Source: a virus. Taken from it: DNA of 64,000 nucleotides. The notes beneath the pieces are model-generated. The model had not been told where the DNA came from. It was given only the letters and a program-made list of their open reading frames with translations, and ran no database searches. This document shows, piece by piece, positions 8,229 through 21,545 of this stretch. The translations under genes were made by a program, and so were the position numbers. The DNA lies in the IMG/VR virus record IMGVR_UViG_3300023178_000009, positions 62,001 to 126,000 of that record. The stretch is one strand, 5' to 3'. Numbering within the stretch: position 1 is the stretch's first letter; every line of letters begins with the position of its first letter.

Positions 8229-8289
8229 AACACGTGATCTGAGTTTCCCCATTACTATGTCTTTGTAATTAAATTTGCAAGGAGTAAGT

Positions 8290-8616
8290 ATGTCTGAAGA
8301 AGTAAAACAAGAAAAGTTTCATCCAGCCGATACAAACGGTGATGGAAAAGTAAGCAAAGAAGAAGAAGCAATGTATCTTGAGTTTCGCAGAAAGGAACTC
8401 GAAGATGCAGATGCTATGCGCGATGCTCAGCGATCTATGGCTTGGTTCTCGTTGTGGGGTATGTTATTATATCCTGTGCTTGTAGTCGGCGCCAATGTTG
8501 GTGGGTTAGAACAAGGAGCTAAAATACTAGGTGATATGGCGGGTGTATATTTCATCGCCGTAGCTGGTATTGTAGCAGCGTTCTTTGGCGCCCAAGCATG
8601 GAGCGGAAAAAAATAA
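8290..8616 (+). CDS. EF-hand membrane protein, holin-like
   Basis: A 108-residue protein starting at the ATG with an AAGGAG ribosome site five bases upstream. Residues 13-24 form a canonical EF-hand calcium loop (DTNGDGKVSKEE). A charged helix follows, then two hydrophobic segments (LWGMLLYPVLVVG and YFIAVAGIVAAFFGA). Similar small EF-hand/two-helix proteins occur in marine T4-like phages as far as I recall. The small size, two membrane helices and late promoter allow a holin or lysis-timing role, but this is inference. The next gene starts at the base after its stop. Confidence 0.75.
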   Translation: MSEEVKQEKFHPADTNGDGKVSKEEEAMYLEFRRKELEDADAMRDAQRSMAWFSLWGMLLYPVLVVGANVGGLEQGAKILGDMAGVYFIAVAGIVAAFFGAQAWSGKK

Positions 8617-9027
8617 ATGGATAATAATTTAGAAGTTAGCGAAGACTCATCAATCACTATTCCAATTCGTAATTTACTTGCGATTGGATTTGCAATTGTT
8701 TGTGTTGTAGTCGGCTACTTTGAGGTAACAAATCGTATTGATGTACTCGAACGCGAAAATATTCTGTTGAGACAAGAAGTTAATATGAATTCAGAATTTC
8801 GTGTAAAGTGGCCGCGTGGTGAATTAGGTAGCTTACCTGATGATTTAATGCAAAACGCTGCAATACATTCGATTGAGAAACAAATGGTTGATTTCGAAAA
8901 CGATACTAAACAAATGCAAGATCTTCGTATTCTAATCAATAAAGAGCAAGGTGTAAACGAAACACAAAATGAAAAGATTGAGACGCTCTTTGATATATGG
9001 AATAACTCCTTGACAGAAAAAAAATAA
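8617..9027 (+). CDS. Single-pass membrane protein with coiled coil
   Basis: A 136-residue protein with one hydrophobic segment (LLAIGFAIVCVVVGYF, about residues 19-34) followed by a heptad-rich stretch (RIDVLERENILLRQEV) and more coiled coil toward the C-terminus. The topology fits an N-in, periplasmic C-terminal protein. It is contiguous with the EF-hand gene. Function is unknown; membership in a lysis or envelope module is inferred from its neighbours. Confidence 0.7.
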   Translation: MDNNLEVSEDSSITIPIRNLLAIGFAIVCVVVGYFEVTNRIDVLERENILLRQEVNMNSEFRVKWPRGELGSLPDDLMQNAAIHSIEKQMVDFENDTKQMQDLRILINKEQGVNETQNEKIETLFDIWNNSLTEKK

Positions 9028-9054
9028 ACTATAAAATATATGAAGGATTATTAT

Positions 9055-9735
9055 ATGAGAACTATAATATTCTTGACTATGTTTTTGTTTTGTTCTAGTG
9101 CATATGCACAGATTGATACGCGAGGTGATGGTGAATTTGAACCAAATTTGCCTGGCGATGTCGTACCTGGCAATGCACAGGATGGTGATTTGAATTCGAA
9201 TCAACAAAATTCGAATAATAATAATACATCAACTACCAATATTGGAGCAGGTGCCGGTTCTCCTACACCTGTAGGTACTGCAATTGCTCCAAGCCTGATG
9301 TCATCTGGTAGTGATACCTGCTTACAAAGCAGAGGAACTGGAATACAACTTCTAGATATAGGTGTCTCAAGAGGTGCGTATAAACAGGATGAAGAATGTA
9401 ACAGAAGACGCGACGCAAAAGTCTTCAAAGATCTAGGCATGATTCTCCCAGCGGTGAGTAGAATGTGCCAAAACGAAGACAACTGGAAAGCCATGTTTAT
9501 TTCCGGCAATCCATGTCCTATATTAGTCGCAGGCAAAATGGTTTTTGGTAAACGTGCGGTGCTAGCAATGAGAAGTCAGCCCGACGTATATATTCCTGAT
9601 TACGATGATAATAAAACTTTCTACGACACCGTTTTAGGAATAGGAAAACAAACCGATGAACAAACTAAAAACACTGGTAATGAGCTTAGTGTTAGCGAGC
9701 GGTTCCGCAGTAGCAGGACCAGTTCAGTGGAATAG
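9055..9735 (+). CDS. Exported hypothetical protein, Asn-rich linker
   Basis: The ATG at 9055 is preferred over an earlier in-frame ATG because AAGGA lies about eight bases before it. The first 17 residues (MRTIIFLTMFLFCSSAY) are a signal peptide with an AYA-Q cleavage site. A low-complexity Asn/Ser linker follows, then a Cys-containing domain with four or more cysteines (SDTCLQSR, DEECNRRR, SRMCQNE, GNPCPIL) suited to disulfides in the periplasm. The 3' end overlaps the next gene by 80 bases. The family is not recognised. Confidence 0.7.
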   Translation: MRTIIFLTMFLFCSSAYAQIDTRGDGEFEPNLPGDVVPGNAQDGDLNSNQQNSNNNNTSTTNIGAGAGSPTPVGTAIAPSLMSSGSDTCLQSRGTGIQLLDIGVSRGAYKQDEECNRRRDAKVFKDLGMILPAVSRMCQNEDNWKAMFISGNPCPILVAGKMVFGKRAVLAMRSQPDVYIPDYDDNKTFYDTVLGIGKQTDEQTKNTGNELSVSERFRSSRTSSVE

Positions 9736-10585
9736 TGTAGATAATCTTGTCGCTGCATCAGGTAGTATTGCAACGACACTTAATGCAGGAATTAGAAGAG
9801 TGGGAGGTATACAATCAGTTGTACCCGGCGGCACTGTAACTCCTGATGGATATTTGGAAGTTGATGCAACACTAATTTCTGAAGCACAACGAACAGCCTA
9901 TAATCAGGCAATTCAGGAAGTGCAAGCTGATATCTTTCAAAAGACAGCCGCAGAATATTTTGGTGAAGAATATGCAGCAGCTCAAATCGCATTTGGTAAC
10001 GCAGTAGACGCATATGTCGATGCTGTAACACCGATTGCTACGGCTCAACATATTAATAACATGGCAGCTCAAGTACAATTGAGTGGTGATGCAATTCAAG
10101 GTCAACAATTGCAAGCATATGTTCTTGATAATAATGTATTGATGACTACTGGTCAAACTGATGCATACAATAATACACTAACTGTATTACAAGACGCAGC
10201 AGATCAATTCTCAGCTGTTGCGGCCGTGTATAACGACCCAGCTTTGATTGAAGGTTTTCAATTAAATGCAGATGCGAATGGTGTAGACTTTTTGAATGCT
10301 GACAGTGTATTCCTTGATCGTATACAAAATCAAGGGATTACAGGTTATGACGCTGCAGTTGTAGTCGACTTTACATCAACAGCTGCTTTATATTTGGTAC
10401 AAGATATTTCTGTTAATATTCAAACTACTGAATTTATAAATCAAGCTGGAGCTCAAAGTAATTTCTATACAACTGGACCTACACAGGATCAAAATACAAC
10501 CTGTTTTGTAGTAGATTCTGGTGGTTACTGGCCATATCAGAATGAAGATCCAAACATGCCTTGTTATATTGAGCCGGCACCCTAA
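9656..10585 (+). CDS. Exported hypothetical protein
   Basis: A 309-residue protein with a clear signal peptide (MNKLKTLVMSLVLASGSAVAG, cut after AVA). The mature part is Ala/Gln/Asn-rich, low in Lys and Arg, with long predicted helices, and ends with two cysteines (TTCFVVDSG and NMPCYIEP). It overlaps the previous exported protein by 80 bases in another frame, which is unusually long and suggests the two evolved as a pair. Periplasmic or surface location is likely. Function is unknown. Confidence 0.7.
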   Translation: MNKLKTLVMSLVLASGSAVAGPVQWNSVDNLVAASGSIATTLNAGIRRVGGIQSVVPGGTVTPDGYLEVDATLISEAQRTAYNQAIQEVQADIFQKTAAEYFGEEYAAAQIAFGNAVDAYVDAVTPIATAQHINNMAAQVQLSGDAIQGQQLQAYVLDNNVLMTTGQTDAYNNTLTVLQDAADQFSAVAAVYNDPALIEGFQLNADANGVDFLNADSVFLDRIQNQGITGYDAAVVVDFTSTAALYLVQDISVNIQTTEFINQAGAQSNFYTTGPTQDQNTTCFVVDSGGYWPYQNEDPNMPCYIEPAP

Positions 10586-10629
10586 ATTAAAATTTTGTTA
10601 AGGAATTGTTAAGGTTAGATTAATTTTCA

Positions 10630-10637
10630 TATAAATA
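10630..10637 (+). promoter_or_regulatory. T4-type late promoter TATAAATA
   Basis: An exact TATAAATA sits 31 bases before the next start codon in an 82-base intergenic gap. It is followed by a short hairpin (CGTC-GTGA-GACG at 10644-10655) in the leader and an AAGGAG ribosome site. Confidence 0.65.
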
Positions 10638-10667
10638 TTTTTACGTCGTGAGACGAAGGAGAAAAAT

Positions 10668-10931
10668 ATGAAAAAGATAGCTATTATGCTACTAGCCTTA
10701 ACGCCTTTCTTTGCAATGGCTGAAGAGCCAAAAGAAGAAACAATTATTGCAGTTGTGTTAGAAGATAAATACACATGGAAGCTGCAATTAGAACAGTGCC
10801 ACAAAGAGATCGATCCTGATAAAGAACTCATTGTGGTTAAAAAGAAATTTCCTGCACAAACTGTTACTGTTAAACAAGACAGACGACAGTTTCGATGTCA
10901 GGTAAAAAGGTTAGAAGTTACAATCGTTTGA
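10668..10931 (+). CDS. Small exported protein with two cysteines
   Basis: An 87-residue protein with a signal peptide (MKKIAIMLLALTPFFAMA) and a charged mature domain holding two cysteines (LEQCHKE and FRCQVK) that could form a disulfide in the periplasm. It starts after a strong AAGGAG site and a late promoter. Its stop codon lies inside the first arm of an alternating hairpin that controls the next ribosome site. No family is recognised. Confidence 0.7.
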   Translation: MKKIAIMLLALTPFFAMAEEPKEETIIAVVLEDKYTWKLQLEQCHKEIDPDKELIVVKKKFPAQTVTVKQDRRQFRCQVKRLEVTIV

Positions 10932-10955
10932 GGACATGAGTCCTCGTGGGAGGAC
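10930..10955 (+). promoter_or_regulatory. Alternating hairpin sequestering the next ribosome site
   Basis: Three six-base arms, GAGGAC (10930-10935), GTCCTC (10940-10945) and GAGGAC (10950-10955), are separated by four-base loops, so the middle arm can pair with either outer arm. The third arm is the Shine-Dalgarno of the gene at 10958, and the first arm overlaps the upstream stop codon (10929-10931). Terminating ribosomes would block the middle arm and free the ribosome site, a layout for translational coupling. Confidence 0.55.
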
Positions 10956-10957
10956 AA

Positions 10958-11503
10958 ATGGCAATCGAAGATATTGAGTTAGATGTTGGTGGAACCAAGT
11001 TTAAAGGTATTTGGATTGCCGTTTTGTTCTCTTTTGCTTCAACTATCGGCGGCGGTATTTGGGCCGCCTCCGAATTCTTTTCGCGTCTCGCACTTCTAGA
11101 AGACGAAGTAGCAGCATCAGTTGCTGCGTCTGAAACTATTGATGCAAGATTTGAAGACTTCCGCGAAGTGTGGGTTGACGATAAGAAAACAATTACAAGC
11201 GACTTAGCTGTAGCTCAGCAACAAATTCAAGATGCCAACATCGATGAACTACAAGGTAAATTGTCAGGTCTCGATACAAATCTCAAAACCATTTTAGAAC
11301 GACAGGCCGAATTGATTGCAATTCAAGAGCGTGTTGTTCAAGTCGAAAAACAAATTACGGAAACAGAAACTCTAGTCCAGAAAGCCGAGTTGATGATGAA
11401 AGATGCGGACAAGATTCAAATAAAGCTTGATCGTATGGCGAAAGAAATTGAAGATTTATGGGAAGGCCTAGATTATCTGTCTAACCCATATGGCACTAAC
11501 TAG
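10958..11503 (+). CDS. Membrane-anchored coiled-coil protein, possible inner-membrane spanin
   Basis: The ATG at 10958 follows GGAGGAC and is preferred to an upstream GTG. The 181-residue product has a short N-terminal tail, one membrane segment (WIAVLFSFASTIGGGIWAA, about residues 18-36) and then about 120 residues of heptad-rich coiled coil. This N-in/C-out layout, with a lipoprotein gene overlapping its 3' end, is what an i-spanin/o-spanin pair looks like. Similar DVGGTKFKG-containing proteins occur in marine T4-like phages as I recall, without proven function. Spanin is a hypothesis. Confidence 0.65.
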   Translation: MAIEDIELDVGGTKFKGIWIAVLFSFASTIGGGIWAASEFFSRLALLEDEVAASVAASETIDARFEDFREVWVDDKKTITSDLAVAQQQIQDANIDELQGKLSGLDTNLKTILERQAELIAIQERVVQVEKQITETETLVQKAELMMKDADKIQIKLDRMAKEIEDLWEGLDYLSNPYGTN

Positions 11504-11786
11504 ATTATTTCCTATTTTACTTTTATCCGGTTGTGCAGTACAATGGTCTCCAGACTATACAGTGCGCAAAGATATAACTGGCAATGAATATTACGAAGTA
11601 ACTTTAGGTGTTACATATCCAAAAAAACAATTTATGACTGCAGAGGAATATGAAGAATTTCGTAATCTTCCAGAACACCAAAAACAAAAGATGATAGAAG
11701 CCTATGAAGAGCGCGAGAAAATGGAAGAGAAATGGAAAGAATTTATTAGCTGTATGTTGGAGCTTCCACCTTTTAGATCATGTTAA
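11490..11786 (+). CDS. Lipoprotein, possible outer-membrane spanin
   Basis: A 98-residue protein with a lipoprotein signal (MALTRLFPILLLSGC; lipobox LLSGC, Cys at residue 15). The mature part is acidic and helical with a coiled-coil-like run (KMIEAYEEREKMEEKWKEF). It overlaps the coiled-coil membrane protein by 14 bases. Small outer-membrane lipoproteins beside a type II coiled-coil membrane protein are typical of two-component spanins. Its stop overlaps the next start. Confidence 0.65.
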   Translation: MALTRLFPILLLSGCAVQWSPDYTVRKDITGNEYYEVTLGVTYPKKQFMTAEEYEEFRNLPEHQKQKMIEAYEEREKMEEKWKEFISCMLELPPFRSC

Positions 11787-12421
11787 TTTATTATCATCAT
11801 ATTATGAAGACAGGTGGCACTGCTATTCGTAAGTGGATGGAAAATTCTGATCGTTATGCAAATGCACAGCATCGTCAACACACATCCTACAGCCAGGTTT
11901 ATATTATAAAAAATCATTTCTACGTTTATAATCATATTACGAATATCAAAAATATCAAAATAAAGTTTGAACCTGTGAAACATATCATTTCGATTAGAGA
12001 TCCGATCGACCGACATACTTCTAAGTACATCAAAACAGATCTTGATTTTCTTAATCTTAAACCAGTTAAACATATCATTTCGATTAGAGATCCGATCAGT
12101 CGACATATTTCTGTAATGAATTACAGTTTACAAGAAGGATATGAAATATTTTCAACTGAAAATGGAATCGATCAATTGCAATGGCTAAATAATAACTTAT
12201 CTCAAATGAATTCATACGAATTTGTTCGTCAAGAATTTCATCAAGAAGATTTTAACAAGGCGTTTGAAAACGATGATATCTTATCATTGCAAAATGTTAC
12301 TCAAGTTAAAAAATATTCTTGGGATACAATGAGTGAGGAGGAAAAAGATAAGCTTCGACAAAGATACGAACCTGAATATAACATGTTAAAATCTCTCGGA
12401 ATACAGTATAATATTCCATAA
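11780..12421 (+). CDS. Sulfotransferase-like protein with internal duplication
   Basis: A 213-residue protein starting with HHIMKTGGTAI, the 5'-phosphosulfate loop of carbohydrate sulfotransferases that use PAPS. The 3'-phosphate loop (ISIRDPISRHIS) is present twice, 30 residues apart, through an in-frame 90-base tandem duplication. It would transfer sulfate to a sugar or similar acceptor. Base composition is AT-rich compared with the adjacent gp44. It sits between the lipoprotein and the clamp loader. Whether the duplicated enzyme is active cannot be told. Confidence 0.7.
   Translation: MLIYYHHIMKTGGTAIRKWMENSDRYANAQHRQHTSYSQVYIIKNHFYVYNHITNIKNIKIKFEPVKHIISIRDPIDRHTSKYIKTDLDFLNLKPVKHIISIRDPISRHISVMNYSLQEGYEIFSTENGIDQLQWLNNNLSQMNSYEFVRQEFHQEDFNKAFENDDILSLQNVTQVKKYSWDTMSEEEKDKLRQRYEPEYNMLKSLGIQYNIP
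11971..12110 (+). repeat. In-frame direct repeat within the sulfotransferase gene
   Basis: About 50 nearly identical bases at 11971-12020 recur at 12061-12110, offset by exactly 90 bases (30 codons). Both copies encode a PVKHIISIRDPI-type segment. Differences are few, pointing to a recent duplication by slippage or recombination. Confidence 0.85.
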
Positions 12422-12438
12422 GCGTGAGGACTTATATT

Positions 12439-13377
12439 ATGAATGATGATTTTTTGTGGGTCGAGAAATATCGACCTCGTACCGTATCCGATACTATCCT
12501 ACCGGATCAACTCAAACAAACCTTTCAACAATTTGTTAACGATGGCAATGTTCCTAATCTTATCTTGACCGGTAGCGCCGGTGTTGGTAAGACTACGATT
12601 GCCAAAGCCATGCTCGAAGAACTTGACTGCGACTACATCGTCATCAATGGTTCGATGAATGGTAATATTGACACCCTTCGCAACGATATCATGTCGTTTG
12701 CATCCTCAGTATCTCTCCAAGGCGGTCGCAAATATGTGATTCTCGACGAAGCAGATTACCTTAATCCTAACTCTACTCAACCTGCTCTTCGTAACTTCAT
12801 GGAAGAGTTCTCCAAAAACTGTGGCTTCATTCTTACATGCAACTTTAAGAACAAGATTATTGATCCACTACACTCTCGATGTAGTGTGGTCGAGTTTAAA
12901 CTTGATAAAGATCAACGTATGGAATGTGCTGCTCAAATGTTCAAACGAACATGTACAATTCTTAATCAAGAAAATGTAGAGTTTGATAAAGCAGTTGTTG
13001 CTGAAGTAGTGAAGAAGCATTTCCCTGATAATCGTCGTATTCTTAATGAGCTTCAACGATATTCTGCTACAGGACGCATAGATACTGGCATCCTAAATAA
13101 TTTACAAGAAGTGACGATGACTAATTTAGTCTCATCTCTCAAACAGAAAGATTTCACTTCGGTTCGTAAATGGGTGGCAGAGAATAGTGATGCAGACAAT
13201 ACAACAATCTTTCGGCGACTTTATGACAAGTGTTCTGACTTCATGGCGCCAAGTAGCATACCTCAATTGGTCCTTATTCTTGCCGATTATCAATATAAGG
13301 CTGCATTTGTTGCAGATCATGAAATCAATATGACTGCATGTCTTACTGAGATCATGGCCAATTGTGAGTTTACATGA
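12439..13377 (+). CDS. 44: Clamp loader large subunit (T4 gp44 family)
   Basis: A 312-residue AAA+ ATPase. It opens with FLWVEKYRPRT, the RFC/gp44 signature; Walker A is GSAGVGKT (45-52), Walker B is VILDEAD (DEAD at 103-106) and the SRC arginine-finger motif appears as LHSRCSV. With gp62 it loads the gp45 clamp onto primer ends. The ATG at 12439 is chosen over an upstream GTG because GAGGA lies about eight bases before it. The 3' end overlaps an oxygenase gene inserted between gp44 and gp62, which are adjacent in T4. Confidence 0.95.
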   Translation: MNDDFLWVEKYRPRTVSDTILPDQLKQTFQQFVNDGNVPNLILTGSAGVGKTTIAKAMLEELDCDYIVINGSMNGNIDTLRNDIMSFASSVSLQGGRKYVILDEADYLNPNSTQPALRNFMEEFSKNCGFILTCNFKNKIIDPLHSRCSVVEFKLDKDQRMECAAQMFKRTCTILNQENVEFDKAVVAEVVKKHFPDNRRILNELQRYSATGRIDTGILNNLQEVTMTNLVSSLKQKDFTSVRKWVAENSDADNTTIFRRLYDKCSDFMAPSSIPQLVLILADYQYKAAFVADHEINMTACLTEIMANCEFT

Positions 13378-13901
13378 TTTTAATTAATAATTTTTTATCA
13401 CTGGAAGATTGTCTTAAAGTTTCAGAAGATAAAAATAAACTCTGGAAAGAAAATTGTTGGACAATCAATAAGCACAACTGGGAACCCAACTTAACAGCTG
13501 GTCTATATGGATCTGTCTATATGACCAATGTTTCTCCTGAAATTAATGTCAGAGTAGGATTTTATATCGACAAATATTTTGATAATAAAGTAGATTGGGA
13601 TAGAACTAATATACAACATTTTGTATGGGATACTAATTCTGGCATAAACTGGCACAACGATAGGGGATATGATTTTGCCGGTACCATTTATATAAATGAA
13701 CACTATAATCCTGATTGGGGTGGTATTTTCGAATATTTTGAGAATGTAGATAGTCAACAAAAACATTCCATATGTCCTGAGCAAGGACTATTCGTGATCA
13801 ACACTATAGGTCAATTACATCGTGTAACTAAAATTACACATCCTATGATGGATATTTTTAGACACACAATACAAATTTTCGGAAAGTTTAAAGATGTTTA
13901 A
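13374..13901 (+). CDS. 2OG-Fe(II) oxygenase
   Basis: A 175-residue oxygenase of the prolyl-hydroxylase-like type. Iron ligands are His94-x-Asp96 (WHNDRGYDF) and His149 (QLHRVT); the strand GTIYINEHYN and GGIFEYF are typical, and the Arg in IFRHTIQIF would bind 2-oxoglutarate. It starts by ATGA overlap with gp44 and is AT-rich compared with it, so it looks like cargo inserted into the clamp-loader operon. The substrate is unknown. Confidence 0.8.
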   Translation: MILINNFLSLEDCLKVSEDKNKLWKENCWTINKHNWEPNLTAGLYGSVYMTNVSPEINVRVGFYIDKYFDNKVDWDRTNIQHFVWDTNSGINWHNDRGYDFAGTIYINEHYNPDWGGIFEYFENVDSQQKHSICPEQGLFVINTIGQLHRVTKITHPMMDIFRHTIQIFGKFKDV

Positions 13902-14079
13902 GAAAAAACGCCCTCTATGTGAGGTTGATGTGTGTGATAATTTTCTCCCTGATACTGGAGATTGTGGTACAATTGTGCTTGGCGAACATGAGTTTAAAGT
14001 GTGTGATGAATGCTATAAGCTTATGGAGAATATACAAATAAAATTTGAGGAGCGCGAAGACGATGAGCAATCCCTTTGA
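13894..14079 (+). CDS. Small Cys-rich, zinc-ribbon-like protein
   Basis: A 61-residue acidic protein with cysteines at CEVDVC, GDC and CDEC, an arrangement that could hold one zinc ion. It overlaps the oxygenase end by eight bases and the gp62 start by 17. No family is recognised; a protein- or nucleic-acid-binding role is possible. It is encoded between gp44 and gp62. Confidence 0.65.
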   Translation: MFKKKRPLCEVDVCDNFLPDTGDCGTIVLGEHEFKVCDECYKLMENIQIKFEEREDDEQSL

Positions 14080-14449
14080 GTATCTGAACTCTATCAATGT
14101 CACTAAACAAAATCTTATGCGTGGTTCCAATGATGATGTGATCGCAGAAAAAGATTATTTGCCATTCATGGTCAATCGTGGTTTGTCATATTTTCAAGAT
14201 ACAATAGCACTCGCTAACGAGATGAATATTCATCATGAGCTCGATAAAAAGCTTCAATACGAGTTTCTTATAAATATTGTTAGAAAACGAAAAAGATTTT
14301 CTAAGTGGTACAAGAAAGAAGACGATAGTGATATCGAAGCGGTTATGGAATATTATGGATATAGCAATGAACGAGCTTCTCAAGCACTCACAATCCTCTC
14401 TCAAGACCAGATAAAAACAATAAAGAGCCGAATAGAAAAAGGTGGATAG
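14063..14449 (+). CDS. 62: Clamp loader small subunit (T4 gp62 family)
   Basis: A 128-residue protein resembling T4 gp62 and placed between gp44 and RegA as in T4. It starts MSNPFEYLNSINVTK at the ATG preceded by GAGGAGC. It is clearly shorter than T4 gp62 (about 187 residues). One gp62 completes the gp44 tetramer into the active loader. The stop is three bases before the RegA start, keeping the T4 order gp44-gp62-RegA apart from two inserted genes. Confidence 0.85.
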   Translation: MSNPFEYLNSINVTKQNLMRGSNDDVIAEKDYLPFMVNRGLSYFQDTIALANEMNIHHELDKKLQYEFLINIVRKRKRFSKWYKKEDDSDIEAVMEYYGYSNERASQALTILSQDQIKTIKSRIEKGG

Positions 14450-14452
14450 TAC

Positions 14453-14848
14453 ATGAATATCGACTCACTTGTAGAGGTAGAGTTGGTGTCAGACGATGAC
14501 TTTTTAAAAGTAAGAGAGACACTCACTCGTATTGGAATTGCTTCGCCAAAAGAAAGAAAGCTATATCAATCATGCCATATTCTTCATAAACGTGGCAAAT
14601 ACTACATCGTACATTTCAAAGAACTCTTTGCCCTTGATGGCAAGCCTACTAATTTTTCTGAACAAGACGAGAGTCGTCGTAATACTATTACGAAGCTTCT
14701 TGCTGACTGGAATCTTATTAGAGTTGTAGAACAAAAACAAATTGAAGAATTACAAGCACCTCTGAACCAGATTAAGATTATTGCTCATAAAGATAAAAAT
14801 GACTGGGAATTGGTGGCCAAATATAATATAGGTAATAAGAAAAAGTAA
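14453..14848 (+). CDS. regA: RegA translational repressor
   Basis: A 131-residue homologue of T4 RegA (122 residues). The core shows FLKVRETLTRIGIAS, LYQSCHILHKRGKYYIVHFKE-type sequence and the terminal NDWELVAKYNIG, all close to T4 RegA. It binds early mRNAs near their start codons and represses translation, including its own. It directly follows gp62. The three lysines and asparagine after NIG extend slightly past the T4 end. Confidence 0.95.
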   Translation: MNIDSLVEVELVSDDDFLKVRETLTRIGIASPKERKLYQSCHILHKRGKYYIVHFKELFALDGKPTNFSEQDESRRNTITKLLADWNLIRVVEQKQIEELQAPLNQIKIIAHKDKNDWELVAKYNIGNKKK

Positions 14849-14852
14849 GGCA

Positions 14853-14881
14853 TGTACATTTCATGGGATCTGTAGTAGAAT
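14853..14881 (+). promoter_or_regulatory. Promoter, TGTACA-N17-TAGAAT class
   Basis: TGTACA (14853-14858) and TAGAAT (14876-14881) are 17 bases apart in the gap after RegA. The SprT-like gene starts 21 bases after the -10 element behind a GAGGAG ribosome site. Confidence 0.75.
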
Positions 14882-14902
14882 AGATCTTGATGAGGAGAAC
14901 AT

Positions 14903-15424
14903 ATGGCTACGATACGTACAACTGGATTGGATAAATTGCAGCAAAAACTGGCTAAGAGATTTATCCGGTGGACAATGAAAAAATTCTTTCCAAGATCATA
15001 TTATACTTTTTCTATTAAAATAAAAGGTAGTAATGATCTTTTAGAAAAATACGAAATGTATGCAGATTGTATGTACGATAGTGTAGGTGTTCGACCAAAG
15101 GAATATACAATTCGAATAGATAATACACTTGATCCAGAAATGTTTATCAAAACTCTTGCTCATGAATTGACACATGTCAAACAATGGGGTAAGGGTGAAA
15201 TGAAAACTTACGAGAGAAACTTTAAAGTTACTCGTTGGCACGAAAGAAAAATTCGGCATGATTTGATTAATTATCATGATATGCCATGGGAAATTGAAGC
15301 ACACGGTCGTGAACATGGACTGTTTGCTCAATTTATTGAGAATGACGAAGAAATGAGAGATTTGATTGATGGCACAGCTACTGATTACAAACTGCTCGGA
15401 CACAAGCAGATGGTACTCTTCTAA
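14903..15424 (+). CDS. SprT-like zinc metallopeptidase-fold protein
   Basis: A 173-residue protein with a zinc-binding HELTH motif (LAHELTHVKQW, His87 and His91 with Glu88) and a downstream WEIEAHG that offers the third ligand. The layout matches SprT/Spartan-like minimal peptidases found in many phages. Possible roles are cleavage of DNA-crosslinked or host proteins early in infection. It has its own TGTACA-class promoter. The 3' end overlaps the next frame by 56 bases. Confidence 0.75.
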   Translation: MATIRTTGLDKLQQKLAKRFIRWTMKKFFPRSYYTFSIKIKGSNDLLEKYEMYADCMYDSVGVRPKEYTIRIDNTLDPEMFIKTLAHELTHVKQWGKGEMKTYERNFKVTRWHERKIRHDLINYHDMPWEIEAHGREHGLFAQFIENDEEMRDLIDGTATDYKLLGHKQMVLF

Positions 15425-15560
15425 TATAGGAGAGACATTTCCTCTTCTCAAAGAATTCGATATTGAATATTTAACTCTTCAGGCCCCGTCTGAGGAGTTT
15501 AATGGCTATCGCTTTAAAAATTATATTTTGAAACAAGACGCGGAGATTATTGATGTCTGA
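15369..15560 (+). CDS. Small hypothetical protein overlapping the SprT-like gene
   Basis: A 63-residue frame starting inside the SprT-like gene (ATG at 15369) and ending at a TGA overlapping the next start. An AGGAG lies at 15429-15433 but no in-frame start codon follows it, so the upstream ATG is kept. The product has no known family. Codon use in the non-overlapping part looks coding, and it bridges two certain genes. Confidence 0.5.
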   Translation: MAQLLITNCSDTSRWYSSNIGETFPLLKEFDIEYLTLQAPSEEFNGYRFKNYILKQDAEIIDV

Positions 15561-15822
15561 TATAATGACTTTCTGCACCATCACTGGTGAGATTATTGGT
15601 AGATTAAAAGAAGAGAACGACACTTCCTACGTAGTAGAAAATCCACGACTATTTGGTCAATCTGAGCAAGGTGTTGGCTTTGTCCCGGGTGTATGCATGA
15701 CCGGTAAGCGCGAACCTTCTGAAGCTACACTGAACAAAGCCATGATTAGTTGTGTTGTAGAAACTGATGAAAATATTGTCAAGGCTTGGCAACAACAAAC
15801 TTCTGGCATTGTACTTCCGTAA
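15553..15822 (+). CDS. Small hypothetical protein, Sm-like flavour
   Basis: An 89-residue soluble protein. The stretch GEIIGRLKEENDTSYVVENP resembles the beta-strand pattern of Sm/LSm folds, but this is weak and I would not call it Hfq. It starts at an ATG overlapping the previous stop and its TAA shares a base with the next ATG (TAATG). Small proteins of this look are frequent in marine T4-like phages. Confidence 0.6.
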   Translation: MSDIMTFCTITGEIIGRLKEENDTSYVVENPRLFGQSEQGVGFVPGVCMTGKREPSEATLNKAMISCVVETDENIVKAWQQQTSGIVLP

Positions 15823-17321
15823 TGCTACATCAAGTAACGCCGTTAGATGCAGTATATCATATATTAAAAACTGGTACCAAAGAACAGTTGCTAGCAGATG
15901 AACATCTTGTTAATTTTTACAATCAATTTAATATAAAAATTGTACCATATCAAGAAGTTTTAAAAATTCTCAAACCTGTTGAACGAGCACAATCTGAAGT
16001 ACACTACGGAAGAATAATTAGTGAGATGCTATCTAAAAATGATGATGTTGAAGATCCGAATCAACACTATCTAGAAAACTGTGAACCCGGAACACGTTCC
16101 TATGATGTCAGACAATTTACAAAAATGTCATGGCTAATTAATGATATTAAAAATCATGGTTTAAAAGAACCTATCACTGTAATCTTATCTCCCGAATATA
16201 ATGCAGACACGCAGGAAATTAATATTAAAAAAGTTTCTCATCCGGGTTCATTTAGATTTCATGCATTACAAATAATGGATTTAAATCCTGATATTATTGT
16301 ATTCGATCATTTTAATTTTTTACCTGAATATAAAAAGGTAGGTCTAGAAGATCTATTAAATCTATATAATGACGATGATACGTATTTTGAAATAGCAATA
16401 CTTCCAAATCCGGATAACCATTTAACACCACAAATTTTAAACATTGCAGGACAATCAAGAAATGGATTGATGATGGAATCAATCGAAAAATATTTCGAAG
16501 ATCATACAAAAAAAGTGTTTAATAAAAAATGGAAAATATTTGTTGGGTATGATGGTAAACATACTGATGCTGCTGCTACATGTGTTAATAGTATCTACTA
16601 TGCTATGGGCTCTCAAATGTCAAAAACCGTAGAAGTAGAATTACTCGATATATCAAAGATACCAGAATATACCAGAGAATATAAAAATCAAAGTACAGAG
16701 TTTGCATATTCACGATTTCTAGTACCTTATCTTTCGAATTATGAAGGTATGAGTATTTTTGTTGATGATGATTATATTTTTACCAAAGATATTCGAAATT
16801 TATTTTATTTTATTAATCACGATCAAGCTGTATCATGTGTTCAACATAATTTTGAAGAAAAATATAATACTAAATTTAATAATGAAAAAGACGTTTGGTA
16901 TCCTAAAAAACTGTGGTCAAGTTTAATGGTATTCAATAATGAACATCCTGATTGTAAAAAATTAACACCAGAAATTGTAAATACAGAATCTGGAAAATAT
17001 TTGCATCAGTTCGAATGGACAGATAAGATTGGATCTATACCAAAAATGTGGGCATGGACAGAAGGATACGATGATATAAATAGTATACATCATGCTCGAG
17101 GTTTACACTGGACAAGAGGTGGCCCTTGGATTGAAGACATGAATTGTAGTGAAATTCAAGGACTGAGTTTATATGATTATTATAGATCTAGGCACATAGA
17201 TCTAAAAGTTTTTCAATCTAGATTTTGTGCATTCGTTAATCCACATGAGTGGTATGATATGAATGAACCTTTGATAGATGAAAATAGTGGAACTAAAACC
17301 GTACTAAAAAGAGGTAAATGA
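15822..17321 (+). CDS. ParB-like domain fused to GT8-like glycosyltransferase
   Basis: A 499-residue two-domain protein. The N-terminal half (about 1-235) resembles ParB/Srx-type domains: WLINDIKNHGLKEPITVIL followed by HPGSFRFHAL. The C-terminal half (about 237-490) resembles GT8 glycosyltransferases: KIFVGYDGKHTDAAATC, EFAYSRFLVPYL and the metal-binding VDDDYIF. It starts by TAATG coupling. ParB-superfamily kinases have been predicted in phage base-modification systems, so this fusion could phosphorylate and glycosylate a base or sugar; that is inference. The gene is AT-rich relative to its neighbours. Confidence 0.7.
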   Translation: MLHQVTPLDAVYHILKTGTKEQLLADEHLVNFYNQFNIKIVPYQEVLKILKPVERAQSEVHYGRIISEMLSKNDDVEDPNQHYLENCEPGTRSYDVRQFTKMSWLINDIKNHGLKEPITVILSPEYNADTQEINIKKVSHPGSFRFHALQIMDLNPDIIVFDHFNFLPEYKKVGLEDLLNLYNDDDTYFEIAILPNPDNHLTPQILNIAGQSRNGLMMESIEKYFEDHTKKVFNKKWKIFVGYDGKHTDAAATCVNSIYYAMGSQMSKTVEVELLDISKIPEYTREYKNQSTEFAYSRFLVPYLSNYEGMSIFVDDDYIFTKDIRNLFYFINHDQAVSCVQHNFEEKYNTKFNNEKDVWYPKKLWSSLMVFNNEHPDCKKLTPEIVNTESGKYLHQFEWTDKIGSIPKMWAWTEGYDDINSIHHARGLHWTRGGPWIEDMNCSEIQGLSLYDYYRSRHIDLKVFQSRFCAFVNPHEWYDMNEPLIDENSGTKTVLKRGK

Positions 17322-17322
17322 G

Positions 17323-17619
17323 ATGGATACTGTAATTGCAATCGTATTGTTTGGCGCCGCTGGAGTAGCACTTTATTTTTGGCTACAAAAGCGTAAAGAA
17401 CCAAAGAAAACGGTCATTTTGCCAGGCGTTTCAGAAGATCTATTTAATGCTACAGTTGAAGATCTAATGCGTAAAACCAAAGCAGAGCTTATTCAAATTT
17501 GGTCAGCTGAAATTATTGCAAGCGGTGGTAATTATGTTCCTCCTACGCTTGGTAACGGCATGACCAAAAAACAGATTTCAGAAGAAATCGCTGCACTCCG
17601 CCTGGGCGGCCGCCCCTAA
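17323..17619 (+). CDS. Small membrane-anchored protein
   Basis: A 98-residue protein with one N-terminal membrane segment (VIAIVLFGAAGVALYFWL) and a cytoplasmic helical domain ending RLGGRP. The 3' end contains an unusual GC-rich palindrome (GGGCGGCCGCCC). It starts one base after the fusion glycosyltransferase stop. Function is unknown. Confidence 0.65.
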   Translation: MDTVIAIVLFGAAGVALYFWLQKRKEPKKTVILPGVSEDLFNATVEDLMRKTKAELIQIWSAEIIASGGNYVPPTLGNGMTKKQISEEIAALRLGGRP

Positions 17620-17628
17620 AAAAAAACA

Positions 17629-17657
17629 TGTACAAACGTCGCATTCTGTAGTAGAAT
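17629..17657 (+). promoter_or_regulatory. Promoter, TGTACA-N17-TAGAAT class
   Basis: TGTACA (17629-17634) and TAGAAT (17652-17657) with 17-base spacing, immediately before the HAD phosphatase start at 17664. No Shine-Dalgarno fits in the seven-base gap, so this mRNA may be leaderless or start further downstream than expected. Confidence 0.7.
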
Positions 17658-17663
17658 GTTTAC

Positions 17664-18260
17664 ATGATCAAAGAAAAAGTAATATTGACAGACTGCGACG
17701 GTGTGCTCCTTGATTGGGAGTATGCTTTTACTCAATGGATGCATCGCCACGGATATGATCCGGTTGACGAGACACAATACAATGTAGGTAAGAGATTTAA
17801 TCTTGAACGACCTTTCTCTAAGAAACTAGTTCGAATGTTCAATGAATCTGCTTCCATTCGTAAAGTACCTCCTCTACGCGATGCTATTAAATATGTTCGA
17901 AAGTTACACGAAGAACATGGTTATGTATTTCATGCCATCACTTCTTTAAGTAATGATCAGTACGCTCAACATCTTAGAACAAAAAATCTAATCGAGCTAT
18001 TTGGTCCTACTGCTTTCGAAAAATACACTTATCTTGACTGTGGCGCTGACAAAGACGAAGCACTTGCAGTATATAAAAACACCGAATGTTGGTGGGTTGA
18101 AGATAAAGTAGAAAATGCTGTAGTTGGAGCAAAGGCTGGATTGAATTCAATTCTAATGGCACATACTCACAACGCAGATTTAAGTTCTACTCAAGCTATG
18201 TTAATCAGAGCGAGAGTTCAGAACTGGAAACAAATTTATGATTTGATCATAAATACTTAA
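17664..18260 (+). CDS. HAD-superfamily phosphatase
   Basis: A 198-residue HAD hydrolase. Motif I is LTDCDGVLLDW (nucleophile Asp plus Asp+2), motif II is the Thr/Ser in HAITSLS, and motif III/IV includes WWVEDKVENAV. It probably dephosphorylates a nucleotide or sugar phosphate, as 5'-nucleotidase-like HADs do in other T4-like phages. It has its own TGTACA-class promoter only seven bases from the ATG. The stop overlaps the leader of the tmRNA, whose likely promoter lies within its last codons. Confidence 0.8.
   Translation: MIKEKVILTDCDGVLLDWEYAFTQWMHRHGYDPVDETQYNVGKRFNLERPFSKKLVRMFNESASIRKVPPLRDAIKYVRKLHEEHGYVFHAITSLSNDQYAQHLRTKNLIELFGPTAFEKYTYLDCGADKDEALAVYKNTECWWVEDKVENAVVGAKAGLNSILMAHTHNADLSSTQAMLIRARVQNWKQIYDLIINT
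18248..18255 (+). promoter_or_regulatory. Late-type promoter CATAAATA before the tmRNA
   Basis: CATAAATA matches seven of eight positions of the T4 late consensus and is the same variant found at 41799 and 53414. Transcription would begin near 18262, just where the acceptor piece of the tmRNA should begin. Confidence 0.5.
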
Positions 18261-18261
18261 T

Positions 18262-18320
18262 TCGCTGAAGCTTGTAATAGGTTTGTGCGGACGGCGGTTC
18301 GACTCCGCCCGCCTCCACCA
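18262..18320 (+). ncRNA. ssrA: tmRNA acceptor piece (circularly permuted ssrA)
   Basis: The 3' half of a tmRNA lies upstream of its 5' half. It holds a perfect T arm (GGCGG-TTCGACT-CCGCC, 18293-18309), the 3' acceptor strand CGCCTCC (18310-18316), discriminator A and an encoded CCA ending at 18320. CGCCTCC pairs over seven positions with GGGGGCG at 18420-18426. A short segment near 18269-18275 (GCTTGT) can pair with GCAAGT in the coding piece, as expected for helix P2. The 5' end is approximate and would be set by transcription start or trimming. Confidence 0.85.
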
Positions 18321-18419
18321 TAAGCACATCGTTGATCTAGAAGTGGCAAAGGCGACGATGAGACTAAGATCCCGCTGCGCGGGTACATGGGTGAGAATCC
18401 CATACGGTGTGCTTATGAT
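18321..18419 (+). other. Intervening segment of the permuted tmRNA, cloverleaf-like
   Basis: These 99 bases join the mature 3' end to the mature 5' end and must be cut out. TAAGCACA (18321-18328) pairs with TGTGCTTA (18408-18415). Inside are three hairpins: ATCGT/ACGAT (18328-18332 with 18355-18359), CCCGC/GCGGG (18371-18383) and ATGGG-TGAGAAT-CCCAT (18387-18403). The last has the five-pair stem and seven-base loop of a T arm. The shape suggests a substrate for tRNA-processing nucleases. Confidence 0.7.
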
Positions 18420-18605
18420 GGGGGCGTAATGGATTCGACGGGCGACTGAAAGCAAGTGGAGAATCGTCAATGATGCTGACGTTAAACAGGGTCAACTAAA
18501 ATAATCGCAAACGACGATTACTATCAGGACTACGCACTAGCTGCATAATCCTCGGGGCGGCCACTGCCTTGTTATCCAAGTGTGGCACCTTTTATTATGA
18601 GAGGT
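18420..18605 (+). ncRNA. ssrA: tmRNA coding piece with tag ANDDYYQDYALAA
   Basis: It begins GGGGGCG and continues TAATGGATTCGACGGG, the conserved 5' tRNA-like part of tmRNA. The resume codon GCA is at 18507 in the standard TAATCGCAAACGACG context, and the tag frame 18507-18548 encodes ANDDYYQDYALAA then TAA. The tag ends in LAA, the signal for ClpXP-type proteases. Downstream helices (GCCAC/GTGGC around 18558-18588 and ACCT/AGGT) fit a pseudoknot region; the 3' end near 18605 is a guess. With SmpB this RNA rescues stalled ribosomes. The lysin gene starts 20 bases later. Confidence 0.9.
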
Positions 18606-18624
18606 AGGAAACAGGGAGACGCTT

Positions 18625-19113
18625 ATGATTAGGCGAGCACTTGCGGTATTACTTTGTTTATGTTCTTGGTCAGCATGTGCTGATCTCGATTCTGAATTGG
18701 AATGTTTGGCAAAGAACATATATTTTGAAGCAAGAGGGGAAGAGCCAAGAGGGCAATTTGCTGTGGCTCATGTTACTCTTAATCGTGTAGAAAGCAATAA
18801 ATTTCCTGATAGCATATGTGGTGTAGTCTATCAGGCAAGAATGAGACCGAGTTGGAAAGATCCAAATAAGCTTATACCGTCTCGTCATCGATGTCAATTC
18901 TCATGGTATTGTGATGGATTGCCAGATGAGATAGATGATTGGCCGGCATACGAAAAAGCTATTCAGATAGCACGTATAAGTATTATAGGAATTATTCCTG
19001 ATATGACAAATGGATCGTTGTTCTATCATAATGAAACGGTTGATCCACACTGGAATGATAATATGAGATTAGTTGCTGTGGTAGGTAAACACAGATTTTA
19101 TACTGGATGGTGA
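18625..19113 (+). CDS. SleB/CwlJ-type cell wall hydrolase, exported
   Basis: A 162-residue protein with a signal peptide (MIRRALAVLLCLCSWSACA) and a SleB/Hydrolase_2 domain: CLAKNIYFEARGE carries the catalytic Glu, followed by HVTLNRV, GVVYQ and RCQFSWY. It would cut peptidoglycan in the periplasm and act as an endolysin reached by Sec export. The ATG follows a GGGAG site just downstream of the tmRNA. A second lysin of a different family is encoded at 26744-27187 on the other strand. Confidence 0.85.
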   Translation: MIRRALAVLLCLCSWSACADLDSELECLAKNIYFEARGEEPRGQFAVAHVTLNRVESNKFPDSICGVVYQARMRPSWKDPNKLIPSRHRCQFSWYCDGLPDEIDDWPAYEKAIQIARISIIGIIPDMTNGSLFYHNETVDPHWNDNMRLVAVVGKHRFYTGW

Positions 19114-19114
19114 T

Positions 19115-19840
19115 ATGGCAGAAATTGGTGATCAATATAATACTATACCTTTATTTGCAACACCTGTTGTAAGATATAAAATAGAATTCAACGAAAAAGA
19201 AAAAAGTCTATTAGACACATACACTGATCAAAATTTTGTTCAAGAAAATTCCATTATCGATAGTATCAAATATGATCCTGAAACAGACGAAAATTTTAAA
19301 ATCAATTTTCTTACTGAAAATCTATTGCAACTAAATTCAAAGTTTCATTCAATTAGAGATGCGGTATTAGAATGTGCAAACCATTATTTAACACAGGTAT
19401 GGGGATTCGAAATTGGTGGTACTCAGCTAGTAATTTCTGATTCATGGTTTATACATAGTAGAGGTGAAAACGAAATGAGAGTGTTTAAAAAACACAATCA
19501 TTCATGGTCATTACTTACAGCTGTTTTGTATTTAGATGATACTGATAATGGTTTAATGTTAACACCTATAGGTGGCGGAGCCCCAAAAATGTGGTATCCG
19601 TTTTTATATCAACCTAGAGAAGATAATGAATTTAATAGTGATGAATTTTTCTTTCGACCGGAGGCCGGTGATCTATTAATAATGCCAGCTAAAATGGAAC
19701 ATGCCATTGTGAAGAGTGATAATCCAAATGATGTTAGAAATTCTATTGCTATTAACATTTGGCCACATGGCGAACCAAGTATAGCTCATTCTGCTAGATT
19801 AAATACAAACGATTTTAAGGAATATGACAATGGCAGGTAA
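19115..19840 (+). CDS. Putative 2OG-Fe(II) oxygenase
   Basis: A 241-residue protein with the jelly-roll signature of putative phage 2-oxoglutarate oxygenases. KKHNHSWSLLTAVLYL gives an H-x-H/S type iron motif in place of the usual H-x-D, PEAGDLLIMPAKMEHAI gives the distal His, and RNSIAINIW the Arg strand. It starts one base after the lysin stop and overlaps the next gene. The gene is AT-rich. The substrate is unknown, and the altered HxD means iron binding should not be assumed. Confidence 0.65.
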   Translation: MAEIGDQYNTIPLFATPVVRYKIEFNEKEKSLLDTYTDQNFVQENSIIDSIKYDPETDENFKINFLTENLLQLNSKFHSIRDAVLECANHYLTQVWGFEIGGTQLVISDSWFIHSRGENEMRVFKKHNHSWSLLTAVLYLDDTDNGLMLTPIGGGAPKMWYPFLYQPREDNEFNSDEFFFRPEAGDLLIMPAKMEHAIVKSDNPNDVRNSIAINIWPHGEPSIAHSARLNTNDFKEYDNGR

Positions 19841-20030
19841 GGGTAGTAAAGCACGACCATTAAGTGTTGAGCGTCAGGTATTTTCAGATAATTGGGATCG
19901 ATGTTTTAAGAAAAAACAAAAAGAATTAACTGAACTCAATGCTGATGGCAACGAGGATCGTGGCCGATTTGGAGAAGATTTAAAATATGAATCTGGTAAC
20001 CCGCTCGAAAGACCATATGAACCCGATTAA
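19830..20030 (+). CDS. Small conserved phage protein (MAGKGSKARP type)
   Basis: A 66-residue basic/acidic protein beginning MAGKGSKARPLSVERQVF, a beginning I recall from small proteins in many T4-like marine phages. The ATG at 19830 has AAGGA about eight bases upstream, better placed than for the ATG at 19824. The C-terminus (RFGEDLKYESGNP) is acidic. Function is unknown. It overlaps both neighbours. Confidence 0.7.
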   Translation: MAGKGSKARPLSVERQVFSDNWDRCFKKKQKELTELNADGNEDRGRFGEDLKYESGNPLERPYEPD

Positions 20031-20532
20031 AATTAATCTTGGTTGTGGTAAAAAATATTGGGATGACTATATTAATGTTGATGCAAACCCAGATGTCAAT
20101 CCGGATATTATTACCGATTTTACTCAAGAATTACCTTTCGAAAACGATTATGCAGATGAAATAATTGCAATTCATTTGATCGAACATATCGATAAATTAA
20201 AGATCGATAATATTATACAAGATTGGTTTAGGGTATTAAAGCCCGGCGGAAAGTTAATTATAGAATGTCCTGATTTAGAAAAAATTGCGCATCATATTTT
20301 AAACCGCGAGTTTCGAGAAAATGAACCAAAGCTTTGGGAAACATTTACAATACAAGGAATTTTCGGTGAGCAAACTGAAAATATGTTGACGATCGATCGT
20401 CATATGTGGGGATACACTCCTGATACAATGGCCGATCTTCTTCTCAGAAATAATTTTAAAGATGTAATGTGTATGCCTGCTCAATGGCATCGGCCTCAGC
20501 GAGATATGAGATTCGAGGCAACAAAACTGTAA
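20017..20532 (+). CDS. SAM-dependent methyltransferase, class I
   Basis: A 171-residue small methyltransferase. Motif I is INLGCGKKYW, followed by the acidic strand YINVDANPD and the later AIHLIEHID and WFRVLKPGGKLII, all standard for class I Rossmann methyltransferases of the Methyltransf_11 type. The ATG at 20017 is chosen because NLGCG usually lies within ten residues of the start. It overlaps the end of the previous gene by 14 bases. Acceptor unknown; sugars or lipids are common for this subgroup. Confidence 0.8.
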   Translation: MNPIKINLGCGKKYWDDYINVDANPDVNPDIITDFTQELPFENDYADEIIAIHLIEHIDKLKIDNIIQDWFRVLKPGGKLIIECPDLEKIAHHILNREFRENEPKLWETFTIQGIFGEQTENMLTIDRHMWGYTPDTMADLLLRNNFKDVMCMPAQWHRPQRDMRFEATKL

Positions 20533-20548
20533 ATATTTCACAAAAGCA

Positions 20549-20577
20549 TGTACAAACACTCCAATATGCTGTAGAAT
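20549..20577 (+). promoter_or_regulatory. Promoter, TGTACA-N17-TAGAAT class
   Basis: TGTACA (20549-20554) and TAGAAT (20572-20577), 17 bases apart, 24 bases before the next start codon. It would also drive the two tRNA genes behind that small gene. Confidence 0.75.
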
Positions 20578-20601
20578 GGCACAGTCAAATGGAGAAATGC
20601 T

Positions 20602-20922
20602 ATGGGTATGATGTTTACGAATTCACTTGCGTACGATATGTCTGGACGTCGACGTAAGAAAGCTAAGCCGACCGGCGAAGTCTATAAAAAGTATCAACCA
20701 GAATTTAAGCCTTATGTCGCTCCCACACCCACACCACGTCGCGACGATGGTGTAGTCTATAAGTCTGTATCGGACTTCTCTACGATGGGACAGGCATCAC
20801 GGAGAGAGCCTCAGAAATACACTGGCACTTTGATCAAAGGTATTGCAACTATGCACAAATCGAATGCAGTACCTGTTATTGATCAAAAGCATGCCGAAGA
20901 GATTTCTAAGATGGCAAGATAA
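20602..20922 (+). CDS. Small basic protein, probable early gene
   Basis: A 106-residue basic, Pro-containing protein (GRRRKKAKPTGEVYKKY near residue 15 and a TPTPRRDDG stretch). It has a TGTACA-class promoter and a GGAG ribosome site. No family is recognised. Early expression and high positive charge fit a nucleic-acid- or host-protein-binding takeover factor, but this is inference. tRNA-Tyr begins two bases after its stop. Confidence 0.7.
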   Translation: MGMMFTNSLAYDMSGRRRKKAKPTGEVYKKYQPEFKPYVAPTPTPRRDDGVVYKSVSDFSTMGQASRREPQKYTGTLIKGIATMHKSNAVPVIDQKHAEEISKMAR

Positions 20923-20924
20923 TT

Positions 20925-21008
20925 GGAGAGGTTGGGGAGTGGTTAAACCCATCAGACTGTAAATCTGACGCGCAAGCTTCGGTGGTTCGAATCCACCCCT
21001 CTCCACCA
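20925..21008 (+). tRNA. tRNA-Tyr (anticodon GTA)
   Basis: An 84-base class II tRNA with encoded CCA. The acceptor stem is GGAGAGG/CCTCTCC, the anticodon stem CAGA/TCTG encloses CTGTAAA (anticodon GTA), there is a long variable arm, and the T arm is GGTGG-TTCGAAT-CCACC. It starts right after a small protein gene. Confidence 0.95.
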
Positions 21009-21012
21009 ACTT

Positions 21013-21099
21013 GCCTCGGTGGTGAAATTGGTAGACACAAGGGACTTAAAATCCCTCGGCAGAAATGCTGTGCCGGTTCGACTCCGGCTCGAGGCACCA
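21013..21099 (+). tRNA. tRNA-Leu (anticodon TAA)
   Basis: An 87-base class II tRNA with encoded CCA. The acceptor stem is GCCTCGG/TCGAGGC, the anticodon loop is CTTAAAA (anticodon TAA) and the T arm is GCCGG-TTCGACT-CCGGC. It lies four bases after tRNA-Tyr and just before the 150-bp promoter repeat. Confidence 0.95.
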
Positions 21100-21109
21100 T
21101 CCATATACG

Positions 21110-21259
21110 AAAAAGTTATATACTTAGACGAAAATAGTCTAAAAAAAGTGAAAAAAGTTCTTGAAAAAGTCTTTAGAAATCAATAACTTGCAAGTCTCAA
21201 AAAAGCCCTTTGAAATCAATAACTTAGAAGTGTACATTGCCATCACCACTTGATAGAAT
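21110..21259 (+). repeat. 150-bp intergenic promoter repeat, copy A
   Basis: This stretch and 40629-40778 are near-identical over their first 65 bases and remain clearly homologous to the end. Each holds an inverted repeat TTAGAC-N7-GTCTAA, a run of AAAAAGT units, two copies of AATCAATAACTT followed by an AAGT half-site (the first forms the palindrome ACTTGCAAGT), and then the promoter. It fills the gap between tRNA-Leu and the ArdC-N-like gene. Confidence 0.9.
21231..21259 (+). promoter_or_regulatory. Promoter, TGTACA-N17-TAGAAT class, in repeat A
   Basis: TGTACA (21231-21236) and TAGAAT (21254-21259), 17 bases apart, at the end of repeat copy A. An AACTTAGAAGTG operator-like site touches the -35 element. 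The ArdC-N-like gene starts 26 bases downstream. Confidence 0.8.
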
Positions 21260-21284
21260 AGACTCATCAAATGGAGAAAAGCTT

Positions 21285-21545
21285 ATGATTAATTATGTAA
21301 CTGGTAACGCATACACTGGCAACAACGCCAATATCCTGTCTGATATCGACTCAGCTGGTTTCCTTACATTTATGCAAGCCAAATCAATTGGTCGAGTACC
21401 TGCTGCTGGCACCGGTATCGAACTTAAGCGCATCGTCAAAGTCAAGCAAATTGACAAGAAGACTGGTGAGAAAAAGTTCAAGAAAGTACCTAAGCGTTTT
21501 TGGGTATTCCGAATTGAAGACACTGTAGAATTGGAGGTAGCGTAA
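21285..21545 (+). CDS. ArdC N-terminal-domain-like protein, possible anti-restriction
   Basis: An 86-residue protein starting at the ATG behind a GGAG site. It matches the pattern of the ArdC N-terminal (ssDNA-binding) domain: VTGNAYTGNNANIL, then FLTFMQAKSIG, then a basic hairpin and RFWVFRI. Full ArdC proteins carry a peptidase domain after this; here the domain stands alone. ArdC and related polyvalent proteins protect incoming DNA from host restriction. Its promoter lies in a long repeat duplicated elsewhere. Early anti-restriction is the favoured but unproven role. Confidence 0.65.
   Translation: MINYVTGNAYTGNNANILSDIDSAGFLTFMQAKSIGRVPAAGTGIELKRIVKVKQIDKKTGEKKFKKVPKRFWVFRIEDTVELEVA

Follow-up and report, generated by a model that had tools for sequence, protein, structure and literature searches.

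The permuted tmRNA gene and its phage

The window analyzed here, a stretch of 64,000 nt covering positions 62001-126000 of a 163,706-base IMG/VR record, carries a circularly permuted tmRNA gene, in which the piece bearing the acceptor end lies upstream of the piece bearing the tag and an intervening segment (IVS) separates the two. The features of the locus are as follows.

17664..18260, + strand: upstream neighbor, HAD-superfamily phosphatase-like ORF (phrog_420, 3e-39; weak HAD-IA match)
18248..18255, + strand: predicted T4-type late promoter CATAAATA, proposed for the window gene from class-level enrichment, fixed spacing, and gp33 in the record
18260..18320, + strand: tmRNA acceptor piece with P2 3' strand, T arm (GGCGGTTCGACTCCGCC), CGCCTCC, A73, and CCA (RF04321, sequence)
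18321..18419, + strand: IVS, 99 nt, excision expected (folds, covariation with L099/L101)
18420..18613, + strand: coding piece, 3' end approximate, with GGGGGCG acceptor strand, D-loop analogue, P2 5' strand, PK1, tag frame, and downstream helices (RF04321, RF01850, ARAGORN)
18507..18548, + strand: tag reading frame ANDDYYQDYALAA with a ClpXP-type ALAA end (ARAGORN, sequence)
18625..19113, + strand: downstream neighbor, SleB-like cell-wall hydrolase (endolysin family) ORF with a signal-like N-terminus (phrog_938, 9e-21; TIGR02869 region)

An earlier note, made from the letters of the window, had proposed a permuted tmRNA at this position. ARAGORN called such a gene at 18228-18639 with the tag ANDDYYQDYALAA, and RF04321 (tmRNA_permuted), the merged Rfam model for permuted tmRNAs, aligned to 18260-18548 over its full length (model 1-213 of 213) with 114.4 bits against a gathering score of 47 (E 1.4e-21), so that the covariance search the note had proposed as a check bears out its gene call. 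The CCA end that it placed at 18320, the GGGGGCG start at 18420, and the tag frame all agree with the sequence, the last running from a GCA resume codon to a TAA stop and closing on a hydrophobic, degron-like end. The acceptor strands GGGGGCG and CGCCTCC, read from the sequence, pair over seven of seven positions as claimed; the pairing includes a G3:U70 wobble, and A73 and a gene-encoded CCA follow. This wobble is the signal read by alanyl-tRNA synthetase (AlaRS). Helix P2, whose failure to form had been named as grounds for rejecting the gene, joins both pieces in the RF04321 alignment, in which two pairs of P2 and the T arm are marked as nonstandard and no others. The proposed gene end of 18605 is about right, given that the 3' end is imprecise (18613 by covariance model, 18639 by ARAGORN). 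Among overlapping subtype models, RF01850 (beta_tmRNA) was best, with a full-length alignment to 18229-18613 that, at 72.5 bits, falls under its own gathering score of 84, and we do not assign the gene to this subtype; the same sub-threshold alignment covers the predicted pseudoknots of the coding piece. The segment 18260-18450 folds at -79.9 kcal/mol, compared with -62.0 for shuffles (z -4.3). Since window positions 8055-21528 are repeated at 99.96% identity in L098, an IMG/VR contig from another metagenome, the tmRNA locus is not an assembly artifact.

The assignment to a T4-like phage also holds, as the record contains a gp43-type DNA polymerase (about 48% identity to those of cyanomyoviruses), a sliding clamp gene, and, at 136.6 kb, a gp33 late-transcription coactivator. 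The window tmRNA has no nucleotide relatives in INPHARED; in a sample of about 45 bacterial genomes, the permuted tmRNA bodies most similar to it reach about 66% identity. Elsewhere in the window, positions 6283-7521 encode a phage-borne isocitrate lyase (NCBIfam NF011645, 635 bits versus a cut-off of 562), whose relatives are encoded on at least 250 IMG/VR stretches, so that the gene is widespread among viruses; one marine viral genome was reported earlier to carry an aceBA pair (PMC5332604). In addition, some 170 bases following the tRNA-Leu gene (about 21110-21280) recur at 40629-40799 with 87% identity.

A two-piece tmRNA was described in 2022 in the T4-like marine phage Melnitz, which infects OM43 bacteria, and 53 unique two-piece tmRNAs, 50 of them aquatic, were counted among phage genomes (PMC9004378). 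Because Melnitz-type genes are published, the class to which the window tmRNA belongs is already known: the earlier note was right to read a permuted tmRNA in a T4-like phage, but the gene is not the first of its kind. Melnitz (a Methylophilales phage of the Kyanoviridae; MZ577097 45984-46436) resembles the window phage in being T4-like and in carrying a permuted tmRNA, and differs in several respects. Its best subtype is alpha_tmRNA at 107 bits, compared with the sub-threshold beta_tmRNA of the window; a glutamine riboswitch lies just downstream of its tmRNA, whereas none was found in 17600-19200 of the window at E<=10; and its IVS holds an unannotated small ORF, whereas that of the window is a noncoding four-way junction. 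Melnitz also shows that a phage and its host may have tmRNAs of different lineages, and the suggestion of the earlier note that the host lineage may share the gene layout is a weak one. Mycobacteriophage Bxz1 and Bacillus phage G are also listed among ssrA-carrying phages (PMC4131195). Like the window phage, these are lytic or large phages that have a tmRNA. To our knowledge, the tmRNAs of Bxz1 and phage G are one-piece and not permuted, and have no IVS.

Structure of the window IVS

The 99-nt IVS, on which the earlier note did not comment, is the part of the gene with unusual behavior. The window IVS is predicted to fold into a four-way junction in which three hairpins meet a 12-bp closing helix that stacks on the acceptor stem; the segment ends in UGAU. 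Its last hairpin has T-arm geometry (5 bp and a 7-nt loop, UGAGAAU) and abuts a 7-bp helix. Two other phage loci, L099 and L101, have the same IVS structure. In an alignment of the three, 95% of cells are paired and six pairs have changed on both sides, which none of 500 shuffles equaled; the three sequences represent just two truly distinct lineages, making this covariation strong but small in sample. We read the pattern as that of a conserved four-way-junction RNA. No ORF with a plausible start was found in the window IVS, and the IVS alone gave no Rfam match at E<=10, tRNA included. A riboswitch or ribozyme was considered and rejected, as neither the IVS nor the surrounding 1.6 kb had an Rfam match at that level. 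A scan of IMG/VR for the window-type IVS motif returned matches exclusively inside tmRNA IVSs, and the motif was absent from a one-genome-per-species collection of bacteria and archaea.

Exchange of intervening segments and the ORFs within them

We compared the window gene with phage permuted tmRNAs collected by scanning IMG/VR with one DNA pattern, TGATGGGGNNNNNNNNGNTTCGACNGG, which yielded at least 100 unique genes, and with bacterial genomes found by the same pattern. One gene of cyanobacterial type, whose spacer is 5 nt long, was left out of segment analyses, leaving 99 unique genes among the matches listed; loci L086-L097, found with an acceptor pattern, were standard tmRNAs or had no tmRNA call and were also left out. 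Frequencies among the matches listed, resting on one pattern and on metagenomic contigs, are not population estimates. Among the 100 unique phage permuted tmRNAs listed, 97 have an acceptor stem paired at seven of seven positions, 97 have G:U at position 3:70, and 97 have an encoded ACCA. Closing helices of the IVSs have a median length of 10 bp, compared with 3 in shuffles, among the phage matches listed. Bacterial permuted tmRNAs (RF04321/RF01849/RF01850/RF01851) share with phages the order acceptor piece, IVS, coding piece, and in the sampled set they also share G3:U70, a closing helix, and UGAU directly ahead of the coding piece. Phage IVSs range from 26 to about 200 nt among the matches listed, and bacterial IVSs from 26 to 92 nt, all noncoding.

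Bodies and IVSs are discordant in both directions. The window and L099 are identical over 75 of 75 nt at the 5' end of the coding piece, but their IVSs are 69% identical; between the window and L085, the coding-piece starts are identical and the IVSs unrelated. Conversely, L099 and L101 share 97 of 99 IVS positions in tmRNA bodies that are about 70% identical (69% at the 5' end of the coding piece), with no similarity beyond the IVS and tmRNA over about 9 kb. To extend the comparison, we took pairs with bodies at least 92% identical and long enough IVSs, and counted IVSs as unrelated if they were no more alike than shuffles. Unrelated IVSs were found in 46 of 50 such phage pairs among the matches listed, compared with 15 of 107 bacterial pairs. 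A further 28 phage pairs among the matches listed have related IVSs in bodies whose identity reaches down to 58-70%. These results point to replacement or exchange rather than simple spacer drift: the IVS of phage permuted tmRNAs behaves as a segment that moves INDEPENDENTLY, swapped like a cassette between phages, whereas bacterial IVSs mostly stay with their own tmRNA body. We found no description in the open-license literature of an exchangeable IVS of phage tmRNAs that holds a folded RNA in some cases and a small protein gene in others, and earlier reports may exist elsewhere; the IVS is the part of the gene that looks new.

Phage IVSs may also hold ORFs. Seven IVS-spanning ORFs of at least 36 codons occur among the matches listed, compared with 0.7 in shuffles (maximum 3), and several IVS ORFs start after an AAGGA-like site right behind the CCA and stop on the UGA preceding the coding piece. 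In Melnitz (L324, MZ577097.1), an unannotated small ORF beginning MFKWLSKTRLVVITRDYF runs from 46096 to 46224 and onward inside the annotated SsrA and is identical in four of four Melnitz isolates; a relative of this ORF in L118 is set apart from it by an in-frame indel of 24 nt, with a dN/dS of 0.37. The IVS frame continues into the tmRNA in Melnitz, L118, L170, L179, and L206. The IVS ORFs have no convincing protein family in PHROGs or Pfam and no other copies in INPHARED. Taken as a whole, the pattern is suggestive of coding, although ORFs this short are not proof of it.

Several further observations concern other loci. At least two more recurrent IVS families, apparently structured and noncoding, occur in diverged phage tmRNAs (L144, L174, L213, L168, and L116; L163, L185, and L195). 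Permuted tmRNAs with phage-like IVSs are also found in two contigs filed under bacterial MAGs, L257 (156 kb, Crocinitomicaceae) and L286 (46 kb, Alteromonadales), the latter with a small ORF in its IVS; both look like misbinned phage contigs. In more distant T4-like phages (L082-L084), a permuted tmRNA with the tag ANDDNYIQALAA and a 30-nt IVS sits amid an array of nine tRNA genes. In L085, a close relative, a small-heat-shock-protein-like gene directly follows the tmRNA (approximately 955-1447, minus strand), preceded by a sub-threshold match to the ROSE_3 RNA thermometer (29 bits versus 43). An RF00023 match downstream in L085 raised the possibility of a duplicated tmRNA remnant, which we rejected: the standard model spans the coding piece into the next gene, and sequence inspection revealed no second acceptor piece there.

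Proposed transcription, processing, and role of the two-piece tmRNA

The consensus T4 late-promoter motif, TATAAATA, precedes the acceptor piece in exact form in 17 of the 98 phage genes compared among the matches listed, compared with 1.5 expected and a maximum of 6 in shuffles, and 12 of these 17 motifs are 73-81 nt before the CCA end. The window counterpart, CATAAATA at 18248, has one mismatch to this consensus, sits inside the 3' end of the phosphatase-like ORF 73 nt before the CCA end, and predicts a transcription start near 18261, where the acceptor piece begins. Across the window as a whole TATAAATA is not overrepresented. Sigma-70-like sites in the region match the consensus and no more, and we gave them no weight; no intrinsic terminator was found after the tmRNA gene. 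Since a T4-type motif occurs at fixed spacing in many phage genes and gp33 is present, late transcription of the window tmRNA is likely. An early promoter was inferred for the Melnitz tmRNA by its authors (PMC9004378), whereas TATAAATA at 46000 of that genome, 77 nt before the CCA end, suggests late transcription there as well. Late rather than early action would shift the likely role of the tmRNA from takeover to keeping ribosomes free.

We propose, with a probability of roughly 0.8 for the explanation as a whole, that the locus encodes a working two-piece tmRNA made from a late precursor, that its IVS is excised and serves as a cassette site, and that the product rescues ribosomes. One precursor would be transcribed, most likely late, from the promoter at 18248, and in it the acceptor stem would be prolonged past the CCA by the IVS closing helix. 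Two mature pieces have been established for Caulobacter tmRNA (Keiler et al. 2000, as cited in PMC9004378). Host RNase P and 3' tRNA-processing enzymes, the enzymes given for such processing (PMC11915505), would remove the IVS, and the acceptor and coding RNAs would stay joined via the acceptor stem and P2. For a tmRNA gene, a role in ribosome rescue is the obvious interpretation: together with SmpB, AlaRS, EF-Tu, and Clp proteases of the host, the tmRNA would rescue stalled ribosomes and add the tag ANDDYYQDYALAA. The use of host SmpB is assumed because a search of the phage record found no smpB. The probable benefit is that ribosomes are kept available while mRNA is damaged or degraded late in infection. 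The cassette site would keep its closing helix and UGA/U junction, and its contents would be traded between phages independently of the tmRNA body. The IVS would then be a by-product site, where extra sequence is carried at little cost to the tmRNA, and phages appear to use it in this way.

A bacterial host would normally already have a tmRNA of its own, which counts against the proposal. The phage gene might instead be a host-derived passenger or a decoy, inactive in trans-translation during infection, and the precedent of a TLD-only phage tmRNA (DS6A) that inhibits host tmRNA when expressed (PMC11915505; PMC4131195), together with the absence of smpB from the phage, is consistent with this. 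However, relatives with different tags retain the tag frame, resume context, degron-type end, acceptor stem, and P2, each of which is also intact in the window gene, and over its first 75 nt the coding piece shows 100% conservation between phages in which the flanking genes have 67-82% identity. We regard a passenger or decoy as very unlikely.

Two other alternatives concern the IVS. It could be a neutral spacer in which selection acts on the closing helix alone, with fast drift and with ORFs and folds arising by chance; its universal parts are indeed the closing helix and UGAU and nothing else, most IVSs of the set are unalignable among the matches listed, and bacterial IVSs are short and noncoding. 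Yet drift is unable to yield IVSs that are 98% identical within tmRNA bodies about 70% identical, or unrelated IVSs within bodies about 100% identical, and the compensatory changes in the window-type IVS, the excess of long ORFs over shuffles, and the constrained Melnitz/L118 frame with its in-frame indel are also difficult to reconcile with it, so that we regard a neutral spacer as unlikely. Slightly better placed, if still improbable, is the idea that the window-type IVS is a functional tRNA-like or ligand-binding RNA (a decoy, processing signal, or riboswitch) carried in the precursor. Conserved sequence blocks and covariation would be expected of such an RNA, and the last hairpin has the exact geometry of a T arm and abuts an acceptor-like 7-bp helix, but T-loop residues 55/56 are noncanonical and the Rfam search described above was negative even for tRNA. 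T-arm-like hairpins occur in eight IVSs among the matches listed, compared with 1.3 in shuffles (maximum 5), by a loop pattern picked after examples were seen, and when the window IVS was compared with phages by blastn, the best match, with an E of 0.3, fell in the T arm of a tRNA-Glu.

Within the preferred reading of a working tmRNA with an exchangeable IVS, a more specific and tentative idea, to which we give somewhat less than even odds, is that phage permuted tmRNAs hold a dedicated cargo site: the IVS would be a recombinational hotspot for small genes or folded RNAs, which processing sets free. In coding versions, the Shine-Dalgarno sequence would lie in the closing helix and the stop codon would be the UGA before the coding piece. 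Cleavage of ORFs that run on into the tmRNA would leave nonstop messages, themselves subject to rescue by the tmRNA. Phage two-piece tmRNAs usually receive a one-line annotation in which the middle segment is ignored. If the cargo-site idea is true, the most conserved ribosome-rescue RNA of bacteria would double in phages as a landing place where uncharacterized small genes and structured RNAs are carried, with a built-in release mechanism.
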